Assembly (NCBI RefSeq): GCF_000955955.1
Contig: NZ_JYJG01000426.1
Coordinates: 1 to 13,172, forward strand
From: Lentzea aerocolonigenes
GTDB taxonomy: Bacteria > Actinomycetota > Actinomycetes > Mycobacteriales > Pseudonocardiaceae
Reading direction: 5' to 3'
Length of the DNA: 13,172 nt
In this document: positions 2,409 through 12,005 of the stretch, piece after piece
How the letters are laid out: the number at the start of each line of letters is the position of its first letter
How positions within the stretch are numbered: position 1 is the first letter of the stretch
Notes under the pieces: model-generated
Database searches by the model: none
Told to the model about the DNA's origin: nothing
Seen by the model: the letters and a program-made list of their open reading frames with translations, nothing else
Translations under genes and position numbers: made by a program

Positions 2409-4655
2409 ATGGGCACCTGCGCGAGCTGTGGCACGGAATTCGCGCCCCTGCCGTCGCGGGCGCGGTACTGCTCGAACGCGTGCCGTCAGCGTGCCTATCG
2501 TCAGCGGTCCGCGGGTACGTCCACTGTGGTCGCCGAGTTGCCCGGTTACGACGACGCGTTCGTCGGACGGGAAGCCGAGCTGGCGGAGCTGCTTTCGTTG
2601 CTGCGCAAGCACAGGATGCTCACGCTCGTCGGGTCTGCCGGGGTCGGGAAGACGCGACTCGCGGTCGAGCTGGCCAGAAGAGCGCGCAGGACCGAGGTCC
2701 GCACGGTCGAGCTGGGGAAGCTGAGCCGGCCGGACCAGGTGGTGCAGGCGTTCGCGGAAGCCGTTGGGGTGTACCAGCACGCGGGTGTCGCACTGCGCAC
2801 GACACTGCTCCAGGAGCTGCAGAACCGCAGGATCCTGCTGCTCGTCGACAACTGCGAGCACCTCGTCGAGGAGTGCTGCGACGTCGTGGACGGGCTCCTG
2901 TCGCGCTGTCCAGGAGTGCAGATCCTCGCCACCAGCCGAGAGGCGATGCGAGCCGTCGGTGAGGCCGTCTACCCGGTGCACGGCCTGGACGAGGACGCGG
3001 TCCGGCTCTTCGCCGAACGCGCGGGCAGCCGAGGTGATCAGGAAGCGATCGCGGCCATCTGCGCACGGCTCGACGGCGTGCCGCTCGCGGTCGAACTCGC
3101 CGCGAAGCTCTCCAAGTCCGTGCCGCTCAACGAGCTCGCGAACCACCTCGACCAGCGGCTCGACCTGCTCAGCGACGCCGACGAGCAGACGCGGCACCAG
3201 AGTCTGCGAGCGGCCATCGCGTGGAGTCACGACCTGCTGACCAAGCACGAGAAGGAACTCTTCCGCAGGCTCGCGCTGCTGCCCGGCGGGTTCGGCCTGG
3301 ACATCGCCCAGGTCGTCCAGGGCGGTCCGGTGATCGGCCTGCTCAGCGCGTTGCAGGCGAAGTCGTTGGTGGTGCGGGAGAACGACGGCCGCTTCCGGAT
3401 GCTCGAGTCGGTCCGGCTCTACGCGGAGGAACGCCTCGGCGAGCAGGGCGAGTACGCGGTCACGGCCGAACGGATCATCGAGTGGCTGTGCGAGAAGGGC
3501 GAACCCGGTGTCACGTCGTCGATCCTCTCTCCGGAGCAGGTGAAGGCGCAGCACCAGGAGTACGACAACGTGACGTACGCGTTCGCCCATCTGGTGGCAC
3601 CGCAGGACGAACGCCGGCTGCTGCTCGCCACGATGCTGCTGCGGGTGTGCTTCGACCGCGGCTACTTCGCCGAGGCCGGCGCGGTGCTGATGCAGGTGCT
3701 GCACCAGTCCGCCGCCGACGCCCGCTACCGGATCCTGGCGCTGGAGTACGCGTCTCTGTTGGCGGACCACGAGCAACGCCACGACGAAGCCGTGAAGTAC
3801 GCGATCGAGGCGGTCCACACCGCGGAGGCCGGCGGCCAGCAACTGATCATGTGCCGGCTCTACCGGACGTTAGCGGGCGCTTACGACGGAGCGGGCGATG
3901 CGCCGAACACCGCATGGGCGCTGCGCCAGTCGATCCAGCACGGCGTACGCAACGGCAACGACGTGAGTGTTGCGGTGTCGAGTCAAAACCTCGGCTGGCG
4001 GCTGCTCGTGCAGGGTGACGTCGAGGCCGCCGCGTTCCTGGTGGAAGGCGCGTTACCGGTGCTGAGAGCACATGCACGGCCGGACGTCGTGGCCGTCGCG
4101 GTGCACACGTCGGGCTGCATCGCGCTGGAACGCGGCGATCTCACCACCGCGGGCGCGCGGTTCGCGGAGAGCGCTCGCATGTCGGCTCACCTGCCGAGAG
4201 CGGTGCTGGAGGCGGTCGAAGGCCGTGGCCTGGTCGCGATGCTGTCGGGACGGCACGAGCTCGGCGTGCGGTTACTGGCCGCCTGCAGGCAGATGCGCAC
4301 GACGTGGGTCGTTCCGCCGGAACCGTGGTGGCGGCGGAAGATGGACGACGCGCTGGCCGAAGCGCGGGAATCCCTGTCCCAGGCGGCATTCACCAGAGCC
4401 CTCAACGCCGGTCGCGCGATGGACGTGCGCCATGCCGTGGAAACCGCGCTGGACGAGGAGATCGTGCAGGACGCGGTGCTGAGCGACCGGCAGCGCATGA
4501 TCGTCGAACTGGTGGCGCAGGGCATGACGAACGCTCAGGTCGCCGCGAAACTCGGGATCTCCCACCGGACCGTGGAGTCCCACGTGCACAACGTGAAAGC
4601 GGTGCTGGACCTTTCGTCTCGGGCCCAGTTGGCGGCCTGGGCCCAGTCCAACTGA
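2409..4655 (+). CDS. LuxR-family STAND/NB-ARC ATPase regulator with N-terminal Cys-rich motif
   Basis: A 748-aa signal-integrating transcription regulator of the large ATPase type related to AfsR and LAL proteins. Domains in order: a Cys4 zinc-finger-like motif (C4, C7, C21, C25, followed by basic RQRAYRQR); an NB-ARC-type ATPase with FVGREAEL (51-58), Walker A GSAGVGKT (75-82), Walker B ILLLVDN (142-148), TSRE (175-178) and GVPLAVEL (223-230); a winged-helix-like part near 270-300; a helical, TPR-like middle; and a C-terminal LuxR helix-turn-helix (about 691-748) with LSDRQRMIVELVAQGMTN and GISHRTVESHV. Family knowledge: ATP and ligand control oligomerisation, and the LuxR domain binds promoters. 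The ATG at 2409 has a weak AGG eight bases upstream and starts 28 bases after the GH92 stop, so co-transcription is possible. Plausible targets are the flanking genes, but this is inference. The Cys motif fused to this architecture is unusual to me. Confidence 0.88.
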   Translation: MGTCASCGTEFAPLPSRARYCSNACRQRAYRQRSAGTSTVVAELPGYDDAFVGREAELAELLSLLRKHRMLTLVGSAGVGKTRLAVELARRARRTEVRTVELGKLSRPDQVVQAFAEAVGVYQHAGVALRTTLLQELQNRRILLLVDNCEHLVEECCDVVDGLLSRCPGVQILATSREAMRAVGEAVYPVHGLDEDAVRLFAERAGSRGDQEAIAAICARLDGVPLAVELAAKLSKSVPLNELANHLDQRLDLLSDADEQTRHQSLRAAIAWSHDLLTKHEKELFRRLALLPGGFGLDIAQVVQGGPVIGLLSALQAKSLVVRENDGRFRMLESVRLYAEERLGEQGEYAVTAERIIEWLCEKGEPGVTSSILSPEQVKAQHQEYDNVTYAFAHLVAPQDERRLLLATMLLRVCFDRGYFAEAGAVLMQVLHQSAADARYRILALEYASLLADHEQRHDEAVKYAIEAVHTAEAGGQQLIMCRLYRTLAGAYDGAGDAPNTAWALRQSIQHGVRNGNDVSVAVSSQNLGWRLLVQGDVEAAAFLVEGALPVLRAHARPDVVAVAVHTSGCIALERGDLTTAGARFAESARMSAHLPRAVLEAVEGRGLVAMLSGRHELGVRLLAACRQMRTTWVVPPEPWWRRKMDDALAEARESLSQAAFTRALNAGRAMDVRHAVETALDEEIVQDAVLSDRQRMIVELVAQGMTNAQVAAKLGISHRTVESHVHNVKAVLDLSSRAQLAAWAQSN

Positions 4656-4671
4656 GACGTAACGCTGCGGT

Positions 4672-4683
4672 TCATCCGGATGA
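4672..4683. promoter_or_regulatory. 12-bp perfect palindrome, possible operator
   Basis: TCATCCGGATGA reads the same on both strands. It lies 17 bases after the stop of the LuxR-type regulator and 56 bases before the GTG of the unassigned gene, where an operator would be expected. Perfect 12-mers also occur by chance, so the call is weak. Confidence 0.25.
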
Positions 4684-4727
4684 CTTCGCGCTTCCCGCCG
4701 TTCATTGTGAGTACAACCAACGGAAGG

Positions 4728-4732
4728 GGAGG
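4728..4732 (+). promoter_or_regulatory. Shine-Dalgarno site that fixes the start at GTG 4740
   Basis: GGAGG within a purine run at 4722-4735 lies seven bases before GTG 4740. An in-frame ATG at 4680 would lengthen the protein by 20 residues, but the ribosome site would then be inside the coding sequence, so GTG 4740 is preferred. Confidence 0.75.
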
Positions 4733-4739
4733 GGGCGAC

Positions 4740-5534
4740 GTGGAACCGTTCCGTCTGCTGCACCCCGACCTCGTGCCGCAAAGACGTGAGTCGTTGCAGC
4801 ACGCTGCGTCCATGCTCGTCCAGATGGGGTTGGACGACACGGTGCTCTCGGCGCCGCCCGTGCACCAGCGGCTCGCCCGCGTGGTGCTCGCGAGCAGCGA
4901 CGTCATCGAGTGGAAACCCGGCTACGGCACCGGTGACGCGAGCCACGACGATCGTTTCGGCATCGTGCGGGTGGGCGGCGACCGCGGAGGCGTGTTCCTG
5001 TCCAGCATCCTGATCGCCTACCTCGACGTGCTCGAAAACGCGGCGCGCATGGGCACCTCGATCAGCGAGGACTCGTGGCGCACCCTGCTCTGGGCGCCGA
5101 CCGCGCTCTTCGACCACGTGCTGCGCCGCCCCCAGGTCGGCATGACCGTCGTCACACCCGGCCCCGGCACCGAGTACCTGCCGCACGAACGAACCCAGGC
5201 CGGCCAGCGCCTCTACCTCGCGCTCATGCAGGCCGTGCGGTTCGCGGTCAGCGGCGTCGTGCGCGCCCAGGACGACCGGCCGCTCGTCGAGGACTGCGTG
5301 ACGCTCGCGACGGCGTGCCTGCGGGCTGCCACGGCCGCGCTCGCGTTCGCCTGCGACGTCCAGAGCAACCCGCCGCTGCCGATCATGGAGACCTCCGAGC
5401 ACCGCTACCTGTGGCAGGTGATCAGCGAGGTGCGCGCGGCCGTGCCGCGGGCGCGCTTCGACCAGTTCGCCTCGGCACTGCGCAGGCTCAACGACATCTA
5501 CACCGCGAGCCCGCTCCTCGTGTCCGGCTGTTAG
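4740..5534 (+). CDS. Hypothetical protein, 264 aa, family not recognised
   Basis: I do not recognise this protein. It has no signal peptide, membrane span, Walker motif or metal-binding cluster. The N-terminal third is mixed, with a Gly/Asp-rich stretch GYGTGDASHDDRFG (61-74) followed by IVRVGGDRGGVFLSS (75-89). A helix-rich part follows (about 88-130, 150-207 and 221-250) around a turn with PGPGTEYLPHE (140-150). The C-terminus ends in Cys. Composition and codon use match the neighbours, and a strong purine-rich ribosome site supports real translation. It follows the LuxR-type regulator in the same direction after an 84-base gap containing a short palindrome, and a strong stem-loop comes just after its stop. 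It may therefore be a single transcription unit controlled by that regulator, which is inference. Function unknown. Confidence 0.75.
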   Translation: MEPFRLLHPDLVPQRRESLQHAASMLVQMGLDDTVLSAPPVHQRLARVVLASSDVIEWKPGYGTGDASHDDRFGIVRVGGDRGGVFLSSILIAYLDVLENAARMGTSISEDSWRTLLWAPTALFDHVLRRPQVGMTVVTPGPGTEYLPHERTQAGQRLYLALMQAVRFAVSGVVRAQDDRPLVEDCVTLATACLRAATAALAFACDVQSNPPLPIMETSEHRYLWQVISEVRAAVPRARFDQFASALRRLNDIYTASPLLVSGC

Positions 5535-6571: not shown

Positions 6572-7611
6572 CCGCGTTCAAGACGCTCTCGCTGGCGATG
6601 TTCAAGGGGTTCATCCGGGACAAGGTGACGTTGTTCTTCACCTTCCTGTTCCCGTTGATGTTCCTGGTGATCTTCGGTCTGATCCTGCGTGACGTCGGCG
6701 CGGACAAGACCAAGATCGCGGTGGTCGGCGACGGCCCGATCGTCAGTGCTCTCCGGGACAGCGGCGCGCTGGAGCTGGAGCCGTACAACGACGAGAACTC
6801 CGCCGTGCAGAAGGTGAAGGACGGTGACCTGCCCGCGGCGCTGATCATCCACGGGAAGCAGCTCGACGTCCGGTTCGCGCAGAGCGACCAGGTGAAGTCG
6901 GCGACCGTGCTCGGGATCATCAACGGTTTCGTGGACAAGGCGAACCTCACCGCGACCGGTCAGCCGCCGACGTTCACGTTCGCGGCGGAGAAGGTCGAGG
7001 ACGCTTCGCTCAAGCCGATCCAGTACCTGACGCCGGGCATCCTGTCGTGGGGTGTGGCGGTGTCGGCGGTGTTCGGTTCCGCGCTGACCCTGGTGTCGTG
7101 GCGGCGAAAGCAGGTGCTGCGCCGGATCCGGCTGGCACCCGTGTCCGCGACTTCCGTGCTGTCGTCCCGAATTCTGGTCAGCGCGGGTGTCGCGCTGGTG
7201 CAGGGCGGGGTGTTCGTCGGCGTCGCGTCGCTGCCGGTGTTCGGGTTGCAGCTGTCCGGGTCGTGGTGGCTCGCGATTCCGTTGCTGTTGCTGGGAACCA
7301 TCGCGTTCTTCGCTTTGGGCATGCTCGTGGGTGCGTTCGCCAAGACGGAAGAAGCGGCCTCGGCGGCGGCGAACATCGTGGTGCTGCCGATGGCGTTCCT
7401 GTCCGGCACGTTCTTTCCGGTCGACCAGGCACCGGCGTGGCTGCAGACCGTGTCGAAGATCTTCCCGTTGCGGCACATGAACGACGGCATGCTCGACGTG
7501 CTGGTGCGCGGCAAGGGGATCGAGGCTCTCGTGGTGCCGTCGGCGATCCTCGTCGGGTTCGCGCTCGTTGTCGGGTTCATCGCGAGTCGCGTCTTCAAAT
7601 GGGAGGAATAG
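6568..7611 (+). CDS. ABC-2 type transporter permease
   Basis: The 347-aa membrane subunit partner of the ATPase just upstream. The start is ATG 6568, whose ATGA overlaps the upstream stop; the frame stays open further upstream, but that part lies inside the ATPase gene. Layout: a short cytoplasmic N-terminus, a first membrane helix (about 20-41), a large soluble domain (about 42-155, presumably external), then helices near 157-177, 201-226, 233-257, 265-283 and 319-343. The stretch SGTFFPVDQAPAWLQ (279-293) and the C-terminal FKWEE are typical of the ABC-2/DrrB-like family. Six helices and a soluble loop after helix 1 match the ABC-2 fold. It probably functions with two copies of each subunit. 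Substrate unknown. Confidence 0.93.
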   Translation: MTAFKTLSLAMFKGFIRDKVTLFFTFLFPLMFLVIFGLILRDVGADKTKIAVVGDGPIVSALRDSGALELEPYNDENSAVQKVKDGDLPAALIIHGKQLDVRFAQSDQVKSATVLGIINGFVDKANLTATGQPPTFTFAAEKVEDASLKPIQYLTPGILSWGVAVSAVFGSALTLVSWRRKQVLRRIRLAPVSATSVLSSRILVSAGVALVQGGVFVGVASLPVFGLQLSGSWWLAIPLLLLGTIAFFALGMLVGAFAKTEEAASAAANIVVLPMAFLSGTFFPVDQAPAWLQTVSKIFPLRHMNDGMLDVLVRGKGIEALVVPSAILVGFALVVGFIASRVFKWEE

Positions 7612-7631
7612 GACAGGGCCGGTAGTCGTGT

Positions 7632-7660
7632 GCTCCCCGTCACGGTTCATGATGGGGAGC
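7632..7660. promoter_or_regulatory. 11-bp inverted repeat abutting a start codon (terminator or operator)
   Basis: GCTCCCCGTCA (7632-7642) pairs with TGATGGGGAGC (7650-7660) around CGGTTCA; one of the 11 pairs is G-U. The ATG of the next gene follows after one base. It lies 20 bases after the permease stop, so it may end the exporter mRNA. It may also bind a regulator or fold over the start of the next gene. There is no T-run. Confidence 0.5.
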
Positions 7661-7661
7661 C

Positions 7662-7997
7662 ATGACGTTCTCCACCGCGGTTGGACGGTTCCGCATCTTC
7701 GCGCTCGCCGAGGCGATCTCGTGGGCGGGCCTGCTGCTCGGGATGTTCTTCAAGTACGTCGTGGTCCAGAACGAGATCGGCGTGAAGATCTTCGGTCCGA
7801 TCCACGGCGTGATCTTCGTCGGCTTCGTGCTCGTCACGCTGATGGCGAAGGAACCGCTGAAGTGGGACGCGCGCACGCTGCTCCTCGGCCTGTTCTCCAG
7901 CATCCCGCCGTTCGGCACGATCGTCTTCGAGCGCTGGGCCAACCGCACGGGCCGTCTCAGTGACGATCTCGGGGAAGCAGCTCCCGAGCAGCTCTGA
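7662..7997 (+). CDS. DUF3817 family small integral membrane protein
   Basis: A 111-aa protein with three predicted membrane helices (about 10-30, 43-62 and 71-91). Hallmarks of DUF3817 are FRIFALAEAISWAGLLLGMFFKY (residues 10-32, here split as the FALAEA and GMFFKY parts), FGPIHG (44-49) and SIPPFGTIVFERW (80-92). The family is widespread in actinobacteria and has no established biochemical role. The ATG is the only start compatible with the conserved N-terminus. A GGGGAG lies only two bases before it, too close for a normal ribosome site, and it forms one arm of an inverted repeat. The last 41 bases run under the end of the opposite-strand kinase gene. Confidence 0.88.
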   Translation: MTFSTAVGRFRIFALAEAISWAGLLLGMFFKYVVVQNEIGVKIFGPIHGVIFVGFVLVTLMAKEPLKWDARTLLLGLFSSIPPFGTIVFERWANRTGRLSDDLGEAAPEQL

Positions 7998-9015
7998 GCT
8001 CGTCCTGCGGATCGCCCTCGTGATAGATCCGCTCCGAGACCTCGATGTTGTCCAGGAACTCCTGGTACTTCACCGCGTTGTGCAGGTGTGACGCGCGGCG
8101 GCCGACGTCGAGCGCTTCGAGCGGCTCGCTGTCCGGGCGGTGGGTCAGCCACGCCTCGCTCCACACCTTCCGGATGTGGTCGTGCAGTTCGGGCGGGCTG
8201 TACTCGAGCACCCGGCACGCGTCGAGCGCCGGGTGCCCCCACACGGCGTCGGACCAGTCGATGATCTCGCCGTTCCGGCGCCAGTTGCCGGGGTGGAAGT
8301 CGCCGTGCGTGAGCGTGTCCGGCAGCCCGAACGACGGCATCGGCACGGCGCTCGGCGGCAGCTGCGGATCGCCTGCCAGCGCGTTCTGCACGGCCACCCA
8401 GCGCGGGACGATCAGCTCGACGTGCTCTGGCGTGATCGGCCAGCACTTGTCGCCGGGTGCGTCGGCGAGCAGCACGCGGTGTGGCGCCGCCGCGATCACC
8501 TCCGGGACCAGCGTCGGGTCGTGCGCCGCGACCATCTTGATCACCGCGCCCTCGTCGGCGAAGAACTCCGGGATGGCCTTCAGCCAGACGGGGCCGCGGG
8601 CGGTGGGCAGCCGGTGCACGGTGGACAGGTTCCAGGTGCGGACCTGCACGGCCGGCCCGGTTCGTTCGATCTCGGTGTCGGCCCACGCGAGCAGCTCGGC
8701 GGGGCCGCCCATGCGTGCGTAGGGCGCGCGGAACGGGGCGTCCGCCTCGGGTTCCTCCGCCGGGTGGAGTTTGGTGCGGTCGGGTTCCCCGTGCGCTTCG
8801 ACGTGGTAGGTGACCAGGCCGCCCTGCATCATGCCGCCGTTCTCGACGGAGATCAGCCGCAGGACGCTCGTGGGAACGCCGAGCAGCTGTTCCAGAGCCT
8901 CGTTGACGGGCTCGACGTGGTTCCAGTCGAGCGTGGGGACCGCGAGGACGTCCGTGCGGCCCGCGAACCCGCTGGGCGTGCTGACCAGCGCGACGATGGT
9001 GCGCTCAAGCGTCAT
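7957..9015 (-). CDS. APH-fold phosphotransferase, paralog A (third in operon)
   Basis: A 352-aa protein of the aminoglycoside phosphotransferase/choline kinase superfamily, which transfers phosphate from ATP to small hydroxylated molecules. Seen: VWLKAIPEFFADEGAVIKMV (143-162) with the likely ATP-binding K146 and its helix-C partner E155; the catalytic loop THGDFHPGNW (236-245) with H237, D239 and N244; the metal-binding IIDWSD (251-256, D253); and GHPALD (260-265). Residues 1-90 form a module that is not part of the kinase fold and is shared with the two paralogs upstream. All catalytic residues are present, so an active enzyme is expected. The start ATG overlaps the stop of paralog B by ATGA, with GGGAG eight bases upstream (9024-9028 on the + strand). 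Longer reading upstream would run through paralog B. Substrate unknown; neither antibiotic resistance nor metabolism is shown by the sequence. Confidence 0.88.
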   Translation of the reverse strand: MTLERTIVALVSTPSGFAGRTDVLAVPTLDWNHVEPVNEALEQLLGVPTSVLRLISVENGGMMQGGLVTYHVEAHGEPDRTKLHPAEEPEADAPFRAPYARMGGPAELLAWADTEIERTGPAVQVRTWNLSTVHRLPTARGPVWLKAIPEFFADEGAVIKMVAAHDPTLVPEVIAAAPHRVLLADAPGDKCWPITPEHVELIVPRWVAVQNALAGDPQLPPSAVPMPSFGLPDTLTHGDFHPGNWRRNGEIIDWSDAVWGHPALDACRVLEYSPPELHDHIRKVWSEAWLTHRPDSEPLEALDVGRRASHLHNAVKYQEFLDNIEVSERIYHEGDPQDELRAARELLPRDRH

Positions 9016-10061
9016 CGGGCCAGCTCCCGTGCGGCCCGCAGCGCGATCTGGACGCCACCGTGGTGGTAGATCCGCTCCGACCACTCGATGTTGTTGATGA
9101 AGTTCTGCAGCTTCACCGCGCTGTGCAGCTGGTACGCGAGCTGGGCGACCTCCAGCGCCTTGAACGGCTCGCTGTCCGGACGGTGCCGCAGCCACGCCTC
9201 GCTCCACACGCGACCGATCAGGTCGTGGTGCTCGGGCTTGGCGACTTCCAGCAGCCGGCACACGTCCAGCGCGGGGTGCCCCCAGCAGGCGTCGGACCAG
9301 TCGATGATCTTGCCGGTCGCCCGCCAGTTGCCGGGGTGGAAGTCGCCGTGCACCAACGTGTCCGGCAGCCCGAAGTCCGGCATCGGCACCGGAGTCGGCC
9401 TGATCCGCGGCTCACCGGCCAGCGCGTGCTGCACCGCGACCCAGCGCGGCACGATCGACTCGACGTGCTCCGGCGTGAGCGGCCAGCACGAGCCACCTGG
9501 TTCGTCGCGCAGCAGCACGCGGTGCGGGGCCGCGGCGACGAGATCGGGGACCAGCGTCGGGTCGTGGGCGCCGACCATCTCGATCAGCGTGCCCTCGTCG
9601 CTGCAGAACGGCGGCACCGCCTTGAGCCACATCGTGCCGTCGGTGGTCTGGAGCCGGTGCACGCTCGACAGGTTCCAGGTGCGGATCTGGCTCGCGGCCC
9701 CGGTCCTGGTGATCTCCGCGTCGGCCCAGGCGACCAGTTCGGCCGGGCCGCCCGGCTGTGCCCACGACTGCCGGTACATGGCGTTGGGTTTGGCTTTGGG
9801 CTCCTCGGCGGGACGCAGGTGCGTGCGGTCGGGTTCGCCGTGGGCCTCGACGTGATAGGTGACCAGGCCGCCCGCGGGGGTCTTGCCGTTCTCGACCCAG
9901 ACCAGTCGCAGCACGCTAGTCGGCACCCCGAGCAGCTTCTCCAGTGCCGCGTTGACCCCGTGGACCTGGTTCCAGAACGGCGACTTGACCGGGATCGGGT
10001 CGGTCCGGCCCGCGAACCCGCTGGGTGTGCTCACCAGGGCGATGATCGATCGTTGTGTCAT
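9012..10061 (-). CDS. APH-fold phosphotransferase, paralog B (second in operon)
   Basis: A 349-aa protein aligned end to end with paralog A. It starts MTQRSIIALVSTPSGFAGRT. The kinase elements are MWLKAVPPFCSDEGTLIEMV (144-163; K147, E156), the catalytic loop VHGDFHPGNW (237-246; H238, D240, N245) and IIDWSD (252-257; D254). All key residues are kept, so it is predicted to be active. The N-terminal 90 residues contain the same SVLRL and GGLVTYHVEAHGEPDR blocks found in the other two. The start ATG 10061 overlaps the stop of paralog C by ATGA, and its own stop overlaps paralog A by ATGA, so the three are probably translated as one coupled unit. The variable stretch around residues 90-105 and the region after 270 differ most from A, which is where substrate choice might change. 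Confidence 0.88.
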   Translation of the reverse strand: MTQRSIIALVSTPSGFAGRTDPIPVKSPFWNQVHGVNAALEKLLGVPTSVLRLVWVENGKTPAGGLVTYHVEAHGEPDRTHLRPAEEPKAKPNAMYRQSWAQPGGPAELVAWADAEITRTGAASQIRTWNLSSVHRLQTTDGTMWLKAVPPFCSDEGTLIEMVGAHDPTLVPDLVAAAPHRVLLRDEPGGSCWPLTPEHVESIVPRWVAVQHALAGEPRIRPTPVPMPDFGLPDTLVHGDFHPGNWRATGKIIDWSDACWGHPALDVCRLLEVAKPEHHDLIGRVWSEAWLRHRPDSEPFKALEVAQLAYQLHSAVKLQNFINNIEWSERIYHHGGVQIALRAARELAR

Positions 10062-11119
10062 GGGGTGTTCACCAGCCGCATGATGGAAGTGAGCGAGCTC
10101 GTCGGGTAGTCGCGGTGGTAGATCCGTTGGGAGTCCTCGGCCTCGTCCACCACCTCCTGGTACTTGACCGCGAACTGCAGACGCCCGGCGTGGCGTCCGG
10201 CGTCGAGGGCCTCGAGCGGGCGGCTGTCCGGCCGGTGCCGCAGCCACGCGTCGCTCCACACCTTCGCGACGTGGTCGTACAAGGGGGTGTACGAGCAGTA
10301 GTCCAGCAAGCGGCCCACGTCGAGCGCGGGATGCCCCCACACGACCTCGGACCAGTTCATGATCACGCCGCTCGTCATCCAGTTGTCGGGCGCGAAGTCG
10401 CCCTGCACCAACGTTTCCGGCAGTCCGAACGACGGCATCGGCACCGCCGAGGGCCGTATCGAGGGCGGGCGCTCACCGGCCAGCGCGTGTTGCACCGCGA
10501 CCCAGCGCGGCACGATCAGGTCGATGTGCTCGCGCTTGACCGTCCAGCAGTCGTCACCGGGAACGTTGCCGAGCAGCACCCGATGAGGCGCGGAGGCGAT
10601 CACCTCGGGCACCAGGGAGGGGTCGTGCGCGGCGACCATCTCGATCACCGTTGCTTCGTCGGCCAAGAACGGCGGGACGGCCTTGAGCCACGCGGTCCCG
10701 CCGGCGACGGGAAGCTGGTGAAACGAGGACAGGTTCCAGGTCTTCTTCTGGACAGCGGGTCCGGTGCGTCCGACGTGCTCGTCGGCCCACGCGATCAGCT
10801 CCGCCGGACCGCCCGGCTTGGCCCACGGCAACCTGCGCGGGGCGTCGGCCTCCGGCTCCTCGGCCGGGTGCAGGCGGTGCCGGTTCGGCTCGCCGTGCGC
10901 CTCGACGTGGTAGGTGACCACGCCTCCCCAGGACCCGTCGCCACCACCCTCGGCGGAGATCAGCCTGAGCACGCTTGTCGGCACTCCCAGCCGCTCTTCC
11001 AGTGCCCGGTTGACCGATTCGGCCTCGCTCCACCACGAACTCGTCACCGGGATGGGGTCGGTGCGACCCGCGAACCCGTTCGGGCCGCTGACCAGGGCGA
11101 TGATCGACCGTTGCATCAC
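10058..11119 (-). CDS. APH-fold kinase homolog, paralog C (first in operon), likely pseudokinase
   Basis: A 353-aa paralog counted from GTG 11119; ATG 11116, the next codon, matches the MTQRS-type starts of its relatives equally well. It keeps AWLKAVPPFLADEATVIEMV (143-162; K146, E155). In the catalytic loop, VQGDFAPDNW (238-247) replaces the paralogs' HGDFHPGNW: His became Gln and the second His became Ala, while D241 and N246 remain. The metal-binding Asp is replaced: IMNWSE (253-258) has N255, and the codon at this place reads AAC where the paralogs have GAC. Loss of this Asp usually abolishes or strongly lowers phosphotransfer in kinase-fold enzymes. The frame is intact, so this looks like selection for a non-catalytic or altered role rather than decay. 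The C-terminus (about 325-353) also diverges. It starts 32 bases after the MarR stop and overlaps paralog B by ATGA. Confidence 0.85.
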   Translation of the reverse strand: MMQRSIIALVSGPNGFAGRTDPIPVTSSWWSEAESVNRALEERLGVPTSVLRLISAEGGGDGSWGGVVTYHVEAHGEPNRHRLHPAEEPEADAPRRLPWAKPGGPAELIAWADEHVGRTGPAVQKKTWNLSSFHQLPVAGGTAWLKAVPPFLADEATVIEMVAAHDPSLVPEVIASAPHRVLLGNVPGDDCWTVKREHIDLIVPRWVAVQHALAGERPPSIRPSAVPMPSFGLPETLVQGDFAPDNWMTSGVIMNWSEVVWGHPALDVGRLLDYCSYTPLYDHVAKVWSDAWLRHRPDSRPLEALDAGRHAGRLQFAVKYQEVVDEAEDSQRIYHRDYPTSSLTSIMRLVNTP

Positions 11120-11151
11120 CCGATCATCATCGCGCCGGGCTCAACCGGATT

Positions 11152-11649
11152 TCAGTCCTCGAAGTCGCCGCTCGCCCGGCGGACCTTGGCCAGCAGATCG
11201 GTGAGCTGCTCGGTCTGCCGGTCGGTCAGGCCCTTGAGGCCGAGGTTGACGTCGACGACCGCGGCGGTGGCGTTCTCGCGCCGCTGCAGGCCCGCGTCGG
11301 TGATCTCCACCAGCGTGGTGCGGCGGTCGGTCGGGTGCGGGGTGCGGCGGACCAGGCCGTCGCTCTCCAGCCTGTCCACGATGTTCGTGACGCTCGTGGG
11401 GTGCAGCTGCAGGCGCTCGCCCATGACCCGCATCGGCAGCGCGCCCTTGCGCGAGAAGTAGAGCAGCACCAACGCCTCGTAGCGCGCGAACGTGAGTCCG
11501 TGCGGCTTGAGGGCTGCGTCCACGGCGGACTGGATGATTTGCTGGACACGCATGACGCTCGTGACGGCCGCCATCGAGGTGGCCGAACCAACGCGCTCGT
11601 CCCACAGTTCGGCCGCGCGGGCGATCGGATCGAACGGCAGCGGTGTCAT
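11152..11649 (-). CDS. MarR family transcriptional regulator
   Basis: A 165-aa winged-helix regulator. After an N-terminal helical dimerisation part (about 1-50) come [15 protein letters not shown] (52-66), the recognition region [20 protein letters not shown] (71-90), [12 protein letters not shown] (91-102) and the wing [14 protein letters not shown] (107-120), all classic MarR features. Family knowledge: MarR dimers usually repress their own and neighbouring promoters, and release DNA on binding a small, often aromatic or antibiotic, ligand. It is the first gene of a minus-strand unit followed after 32 bases by the three kinase paralogs. It is divergent from the thiamine-binding family gene across 50 bases, so autoregulation plus control of one or both sides is likely. 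No clear ribosome site precedes its ATG. Confidence 0.93.
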
Positions 11650-11657
11650 GGGGACCG

Positions 11658-11663
11658 AAGCTA
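11658..11663 (-). promoter_or_regulatory. Possible -10 element of the MarR-kinase operon
   Basis: On the minus strand TAGCTT fits TAnnnT and ends eight bases before the MarR ATG, so the mRNA would be leaderless or nearly so. This agrees with the missing ribosome site. No convincing -35 element is seen. Confidence 0.3.
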
Positions 11664-11689
11664 CCAGTCAGTACGCCCGAGGATCATCA

Positions 11690-11694
11690 GGAGG
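11690..11694 (+). promoter_or_regulatory. Shine-Dalgarno site that fixes the start at GTG 11700
   Basis: GGAGG with a five-base spacer to GTG 11700. An in-frame ATG at 11643 exists, but it would add 19 residues that family members lack and would overlap the divergent MarR start. Confidence 0.85.
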
Positions 11695-11699
11695 CTCGT

Positions 11700-12005
11700 G
11701 TGCTTGTCGCGTTCAGCGTTGCTCCGTCCGGTTCGGACTCGTCCGGAGGCGTCGCCAAGGCCGTCGCGGAGGCCGTGCGGATCGTGCGGGAGTCCGGCCT
11801 GCCCAATGAGACGAACGCGATGTTCACCTTGATCGAGGGCGAGTGGGACGAGGTGATGGACGTGGTGAAGCGCGCGACGGAAGCCGTGCAGGCCAGCGCC
11901 CCGCGGGTGTCCCTCGTGCTCAAGGCGGACATCCGGCCCGGCTACACCGGTCAGTTGCGCGCGAAGGTGGAACGGGTTGAGGAGCACCTCGCCGACACGC
12001 CATGA
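11700..12005 (+). CDS. Thiamine-binding/MTH1187 (DUF77) family protein
   Basis: A 101-aa protein with the short ferredoxin-like fold of the Thiamine_BP/MTH1187/YkoF family. Seen: strand [10 protein letters not shown] (2-11), helix [18 protein letters not shown] (17-34), [20 protein letters not shown] (39-58) and [20 protein letters not shown] (70-89), followed by a C-terminal helix. Family members are small cytoplasmic proteins; some bind thiamine or related pyrimidines, others have no known ligand. No thiamine biosynthesis or transport gene and no thiamine riboswitch is present nearby, so the ligand is uncertain. It is divergent from the MarR gene and lies 47 bases before a secreted propeller gene on the same strand. 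Confidence 0.85.

Follow-up and report, generated by a model that had tools for sequence, protein, structure and literature searches.

Enzymes of the APH/choline kinase-like family (PF01636) are the closest described relatives of three kinase genes, kinA, kinB and kinC, that lie behind a marR gene in Lentzea aerocolonigenes. All four genes run in one direction on the minus strand of contig NZ_JYJG01000426.1, which was analysed whole (13,172 bases; "the window" below) and belongs to a draft genome of 10.2 Mb. Like the family, KinC has the kinase fold at about residues 86-350, and KinB and KinC have the catalytic His-Gly-Asp (HGD) motif, Asn and metal-binding Asp. Unlike the family, the window kinases add an N-terminal part of about 85 residues, reach no NCBIfam cut-off and include one protein, KinA, with changed catalytic residues.

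In insects, the ecdysteroid kinase-like (EcKL) enzymes have an APH-like fold and multiply in tandem arrays. The variable copy number and the loss of Lentzea kinases resemble such detoxification families; EcKL enzymes are eukaryotic and come without a MarR locus, and they are likened here without sequence comparison. Detoxification by phosphorylation has been proposed for EcKL kinases, going by the title of a reference in PMC12117438. As for the regulator, 4b8x is by far its best match among PDB sequences (E 3.1e-40; next best 2.3e-13 in a one-way search). We take 4b8x to be Sco5413; a kinase gene behind this MarR was found in a few genera only. In the title of Holley et al. 2013, as it appears in the reference lists of PMC3737563 and PMC9739823, Sco5413 is a widespread actinomycete MarR regulator of unknown function. 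A literature search, with most subscription journals outside its coverage, found no paper on the marR-kinase locus. Here we argue that the locus is fairly probably a birth-and-death array of APH-fold small-molecule kinases, one class of which is drifting towards pseudokinases.

Results

Lentzea genomes carry one to three kinases of old paralogue classes at one site

In the window, marR (11152-11649; 165 aa) is followed by kinA (10058-11116 if read from an ATG, 10058-11119 if read from a GTG), kinB (9012-10061; 349 aa) and kinC (7957-9015; 352 aa). The gap between marR and kinA is 32 bases long (11120-11151) if kinA starts at the GTG and 35 if it starts at the ATG, and the kinase genes are joined by ATGA stop/start overlaps at 10058-10061 (kinA-kinB) and 9012-9015 (kinB-kinC). 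Aligned end to end, KinA shares 60% identity with KinB and 64% with KinC, and a search of the genome itself with the kinase family gave three matches at E <= 0.001, all within the locus. At its 3' end kinC overlaps the convergent DUF3817 gene tail to tail by 41 bases (7957-7997); overlap or near-contact of this type is seen again in many Lentzea relatives.

The number of kinases at this site varies. A single full-length kinase is present in 10 of 24 Lentzea genomes, two are present in nine and three in four, and the remaining genome (G020) has a truncated copy only; G016 combines one full-length copy with a remnant. The four triplets have four compositions, which in terms of the five classes defined below are A*-beta-gamma, delta-gamma-gamma (G004), delta-alpha-gamma (G010) and beta-delta-gamma (G022). 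A*-beta-gamma, the composition of kinA, kinB and kinC, occurs in 1 of the 24 genomes, the window's own. With a slot that holds one to three copies and four triplet compositions, a fixed triplet is rejected.

Phylogenetic trees of the kinases grouped the copies by class and not by genome, and a single clade of the three window copies was rejected by the approximately unbiased test (p 2.33e-37), which dismisses a recent triplication within the strain. Position labels (first, middle, last and single) were mapped on a tree of 44 rows, from which five incomplete rows (G016_2, G016_3, G020_1, G048_1, G043_1) had been dropped; they required 6, 4, 7 and 7 changes, respectively. First and last copies were more clustered than in any of 500 shuffles, whereas middle copies were not, and the labels do not form clades. 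The layout described in the original prediction, in which three APH-fold kinase genes with two ATGA overlaps follow a MarR gene at a distance of 32 bases, is confirmed. It had asked for a paralogue tree, which reveals old paralogues grouped by class and not by strain; the clustering by position that it would have taken as support held for the two ends of the array only. It had also named a recent duplication found in a single strain as a finding that would count against a functional system; the duplication is not recent, although this particular combination was indeed found in a single genome.

Five classes (A*, alpha, beta, gamma and delta) were named after the trees had been seen. Under this split, A*-beta-delta-alpha-gamma is the one order that accommodates all 12 informative arrays; the test left out G021 (delta, delta) as uninformative and folded the second gamma-like copy of G004 into gamma. 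A single fitting order arose in 1 of 3000 random orderings, and in 35 of 5000 when each distinct composition was entered once. On a species tree built from flanking genes, class presence required two changes each for alpha, A* and beta, seven for gamma and six for delta, as expected for repeated gain and loss. Mean identity within the classes was 77-80% for alpha, beta, gamma and delta and lowest, at 0.74, for A*. The ratio of nonsynonymous to synonymous substitution rates (dN/dS) was 0.23-0.40 in nine ortholog pairs outside A*.

Adjacent kinases are also joined in a uniform way. The 13 Lentzea genomes with more than one copy have 17 kinase-kinase junctions, and a 4-base overlap is found at 16 of them, more than chance would give; the sole junction without it (G021) has a 14-base gap. 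Start codons for these coordinates were taken by script as those nearest to the start of homology.

Class A* has lost catalytic residues more than once

KinB and KinC pass the gathering cut-off of Pfam APH (PF01636; 23.2 bits) with 40.2 and 41.6 bits and have all six catalytic positions intact, and KinA stays below it with 17.1 bits though it is 60-64% identical to both. In KinA, the codon at 10403-10405 (minus strand) encodes Gln in place of the His of HGD, giving QGD, and that at 10355-10357 (minus strand) encodes Asn in place of the metal-binding Asp (residue 253 of KinC). KinA is a probable pseudokinase; the original prediction did not mention these changed residues. AlphaFold models of KinC and KinA were confident, with predicted local distance difference test (pLDDT) scores of 96.5 and 95.7. 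The KinC model has the APH/choline kinase fold, which bears out the earlier assignment: over about residues 86-350 it matches choline kinases, methylthioribose kinase and antibiotic phosphotransferases, and the first Foldseek match is a corramycin phosphotransferase. The first 85 residues or so of KinC form a separate alpha/beta part in the model and have no Pfam match. When N-terminal pieces alone were compared with Pfam, three of four gave no match and the fourth reached E 0.063, below cut-off; the structure comparison of KinC barely probed this region. The alpha/beta part (KinC residues 1-85) is common to relatives as far as Kribbella, at about 40% whole-protein identity.

Sequence searches did not attach the kinases to a named enzyme. 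KinC alone matched nothing at E <= 1 among solved structures, and a profile of 88 kinase rows gave weak matches to solved enzymes, centred on the catalytic motif (hygromycin B 4-O-kinase, E 5.8e-05; capreomycin phosphotransferase, 7.2e-04). None of the window kinases reached a curated NCBIfam cut-off: KinA and KinC had no model at E <= 1, and KinB scored 14 bits with the thiamine kinase model against a cut-off of 299.45. The 88 relatives had weak matches only (best E 6e-05, in a listing without cut-offs). Assignment of the window kinases as a named antibiotic phosphotransferase or as thiamine kinase is rejected on the NCBIfam result.

The six catalytic positions were then read in an alignment of 110 proteins, drawn with regard to A* from the best 120 of 1501 homologues. 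Left out of the alignment were the five incomplete rows named above, the window's own entries, the four distant outgroups, four fragments (P0074, P0088, P0089 and P0090) and any protein nearly identical to a row already included. All six positions are intact in 104 of the 110. The six changed proteins (KinA, P0072, P0075, P0076, P0085 and P0086) all lie in the A* clade, which has 13 members and support of 100/100; a changed catalytic residue thus occurs in 6 of 13 A* proteins and in 0 of 92 other proteins of the Lentzea clade (Fisher p 1e-6, not corrected for kinship). The other seven A* proteins keep the six residues read, among them P0073, which has HDD for HGD. One of the 92, P0087, is metagenomic and sits on a long branch. 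Its N-terminal part belongs to class beta but its C-terminal part looks foreign, and the protein may be an assembly chimera or a product of recombination.

In a tree built without the motif columns, the changed state needs four changes, three of which are forced by starred branches. P0072, P0075 and P0076 all have Gly for the metal-binding Asp; the differences between any two of them number 3-5 at the 102-103 sites that are invariant in the family and 35-57 at the 221-224 variable ones. Because these three differ so little at family-invariant sites, constraint has partly outlived catalytic loss.

The kinases occupy a slot behind an older MarR gene

Of 23 Lentzea relatives, 22 have the order thiamine-binding protein, MarR, kinase or kinases and DUF3817; the contig of the other, G023, stops ahead of marR. 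Genomes of the Saccharothrix type (g43) and of the Umezawaea type (g44) have the same slot with one kinase in all 18 loci fetched, out of 22 kinase matches (4 not fetched). At E 1e-40, kinase matches occur in at least 50 of 297 genomes of the bacterial family and in 5 of 46 genera, the genome count being a lower bound; this threshold missed the G065 kinase. The 26 matching genomes outside Lentzea have one kinase match each, and of the four matches in g53 and g5, the two fetched are not in a MarR slot.

The regulator is far more widespread. Its gene product passes the Pfam cut-offs of both MarR_2 (49 against 27 bits) and MarR (47.3 against 24.6), and a search at E 1e-35 found it once per genome in 149 of 150 genomes of the bacterial family; just 18 of the 150 are also among the kinase matches. 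Nineteen of 20 MarR loci from other genera had no kinase match in the stretch fetched, the exception being G065, with a kinase at 43% identity. The same 20 loci hold the thiamine-binding protein in 18 cases, DUF3817 in 15 and the ABC pair in 8. Candidacy of the MarR protein as a kinase-specific regulator is rejected on these figures, and the original idea of an operon induced by a ligand of a dedicated MarR is not supported. Conversely, distant kinase relatives outside the slot (L057-L062, L081, L082, L133, L134) had no MarR match in the stretches fetched, some of which lie near contig ends. The likeliest history is that the kinase gene entered behind an older regulator.

Two observations concern the surroundings. 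Beside DUF3817, L041, L042 and L053 (G008, G009 and G020) lack the ABC ATPase/permease pair or hold remnants of it, whereas the other 20 Lentzea relatives have it. At 2409-5534 of the window, a LuxR-type regulator gene and an unassigned gene (4680-5534) stand between GH92 and the ABC pair, as they do in 23 of 23 Lentzea relatives; neither had a match in the 18 Saccharothrix-type and Umezawaea-type stretches fetched.

A conserved element precedes marR

Directly upstream of marR (11657-11674, minus strand) lies the element GTACTGACTGGTAGCTTC, which holds a likely extended -10, TGGTAGCTT. The element is exact in 22 of 23 Lentzea rows (the window and 22 relatives), with one change in the remaining row. 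Its core CTGGTAGCTTC occurs unchanged in all 18 Saccharothrix-type and Umezawaea-type loci and in 6 of 20 other loci of the bacterial family; allowing two mismatches raises the latter count to 17 of 20, compared with 7 of 1000 shuffles. The region of GTACTGACTGGTAGCTTC is strongly kept even in genera without the kinase. We consider the element a candidate leaderless promoter or MarR operator. The hexamer of TGGTAGCTT ends 8 bases ahead of the marR ATG, a spacing like that of leaderless actinobacterial promoters.

A scan of 7500-11800 called no promoter-like site and two terminator-like sites, both on the plus strand, with 1.4 expected. No promoter-like or terminator-like site was called in the 32-base gap between marR and kinA, and between the marR and kin genes generally the scan called no promoter-like site and no minus-strand terminator-like site. 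Because TGGTAGCTT fits an extended -10 at 8 bases from the ATG, marR is likely to have a leaderless transcript that continues into the kinase genes, which would probably be expressed by such read-through from the marR promoter. The predicted single operon thus looks likely to be one transcription unit, judging from the DNA.

Discussion

The history that we favour would begin in a common ancestor of Lentzea and the Saccharothrix-type and Umezawaea-type genera, where a kinase gene landed between MarR, an old core gene, and the convergent DUF3817 gene; among the genomes searched, it then multiplied in Lentzea only. The kinases would be read through from the leaderless marR promoter and coupled by the 4-base overlaps. 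Each intact copy, from its fold and catalytic residues, would phosphorylate a small-molecule hydroxyl on its own, and duplicates would specialise or be lost, as in detoxification families. A* would have lost its catalytic residues repeatedly and persist as a partly constrained, probably inactive kinase. The helical last part binds substrate in APH enzymes. In this part (263-352), 11 of 90 positions hold class-diagnostic residues, compared with 13 of the other 262 positions (p 0.027). On such sequence grounds, the most likely function is that each intact kinase phosphorylates small-molecule hydroxyls by itself and that the classes diverge towards different substrates; together the kinases may form a multi-substrate phosphorylation module.

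Several points weigh against the birth-and-death array. A* and alpha are sister clades, and treating them as one class leaves no order that all arrays fit; the classes were named post hoc, and related genomes were counted separately in the order test. Our confidence is limited to a moderate level because the order result hinges on this class split. The species tree is a quick one, and the A* counts come from the best 120 of 1501 homologues described above. For pairs within A*, the ratio of change at family-invariant to variable sites is 0.15-0.28 if the pair includes a catalytically changed protein and 0.15-0.36 if both proteins are intact; outside A* it averages 0.02 (846 pairs; biased low, since these pairs defined the sites). 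Because intact A* pairs have a raised ratio too, A* appears relaxed as a whole class. Between the window's genome and G018, dN/dS is 0.47 for kinA (against the A* copy) and 0.28 for kinC. A* may therefore be decaying slowly, or it may have retained a role as a partner.

That partner role can be put more sharply. A* may be an APH-fold pseudokinase lineage that arose several times in one paralogue class and was kept as a non-catalytic substrate- or nucleotide-binding partner tuning the intact kinases encoded behind it. We regard the proposal as doubtful.

A MarR-controlled detoxification or resistance operon, in which MarR senses a toxic compound and the kinases phosphorylate the same compound, is unlikely. 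The kinases do lie directly behind MarR, probably in one transcription unit, and the solved relatives of the profile include the hygromycin B and capreomycin phosphotransferases, weakly, beside the corramycin enzyme found first by Foldseek. Against this stand the distribution of MarR, which is nearly universal in the genomes searched and mostly occurs without a kinase, and the NCBIfam results, in which the window kinases met no cut-off and the 88 relatives matched weakly only.

The heteromeric module of the original prediction, made in fixed ratio, would now have KinA as a non-catalytic regulatory or scaffolding subunit of KinB and KinC. KinA combines changed catalytic residues with a confident APH-like model and belongs to a class with residual constraint, and the 4-base overlaps favour a heteromer. 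Three of the six changed A* proteins also have an intact companion among the best 120 homologues, namely KinA, P0075 (with P0071, on a 5231-base contig) and P0072 (with P0044, on a 14118-base contig), the last two pairs being assumed to share a contig from equal contig size; the other three have no companion in that sample. A* is present in 2 of the 24 Lentzea genomes, its companions vary (beta and gamma; gamma; beta; delta), and most A* proteins keep the six residues. Because one-kinase genomes are common, no subunit can be obligate. With one, two or three kinases per Lentzea genome and triplets of four compositions, the fixed ratio and the obligate triplet are not supported, and we judge a heteromer rather unlikely. 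That the array consists of decaying duplicates with no function beyond one kinase, its order and overlaps being passive leftovers of tandem duplication, is very improbable: low copy number is common (the single-copy genomes, the truncated copy, the G016 remnant), the dN/dS of kinA is raised and A* is relaxed at family-invariant sites, but alpha, beta, gamma and delta retain their within-class identity and low dN/dS, and no protein outside A* is changed at the six positions.

For the birth-and-death array, the wider meaning lies in three points. A MarR gene ahead of enzymes need not be their dedicated sensor. Genomes with one, two and three kinases at one conserved site allow substrate divergence in the APH fold to be tested between neighbours. 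Should the A* proteins prove to be real pseudokinases, they would offer a natural example, in a bacterial family of small-molecule kinases, of catalysis lost repeatedly while constraint was kept.

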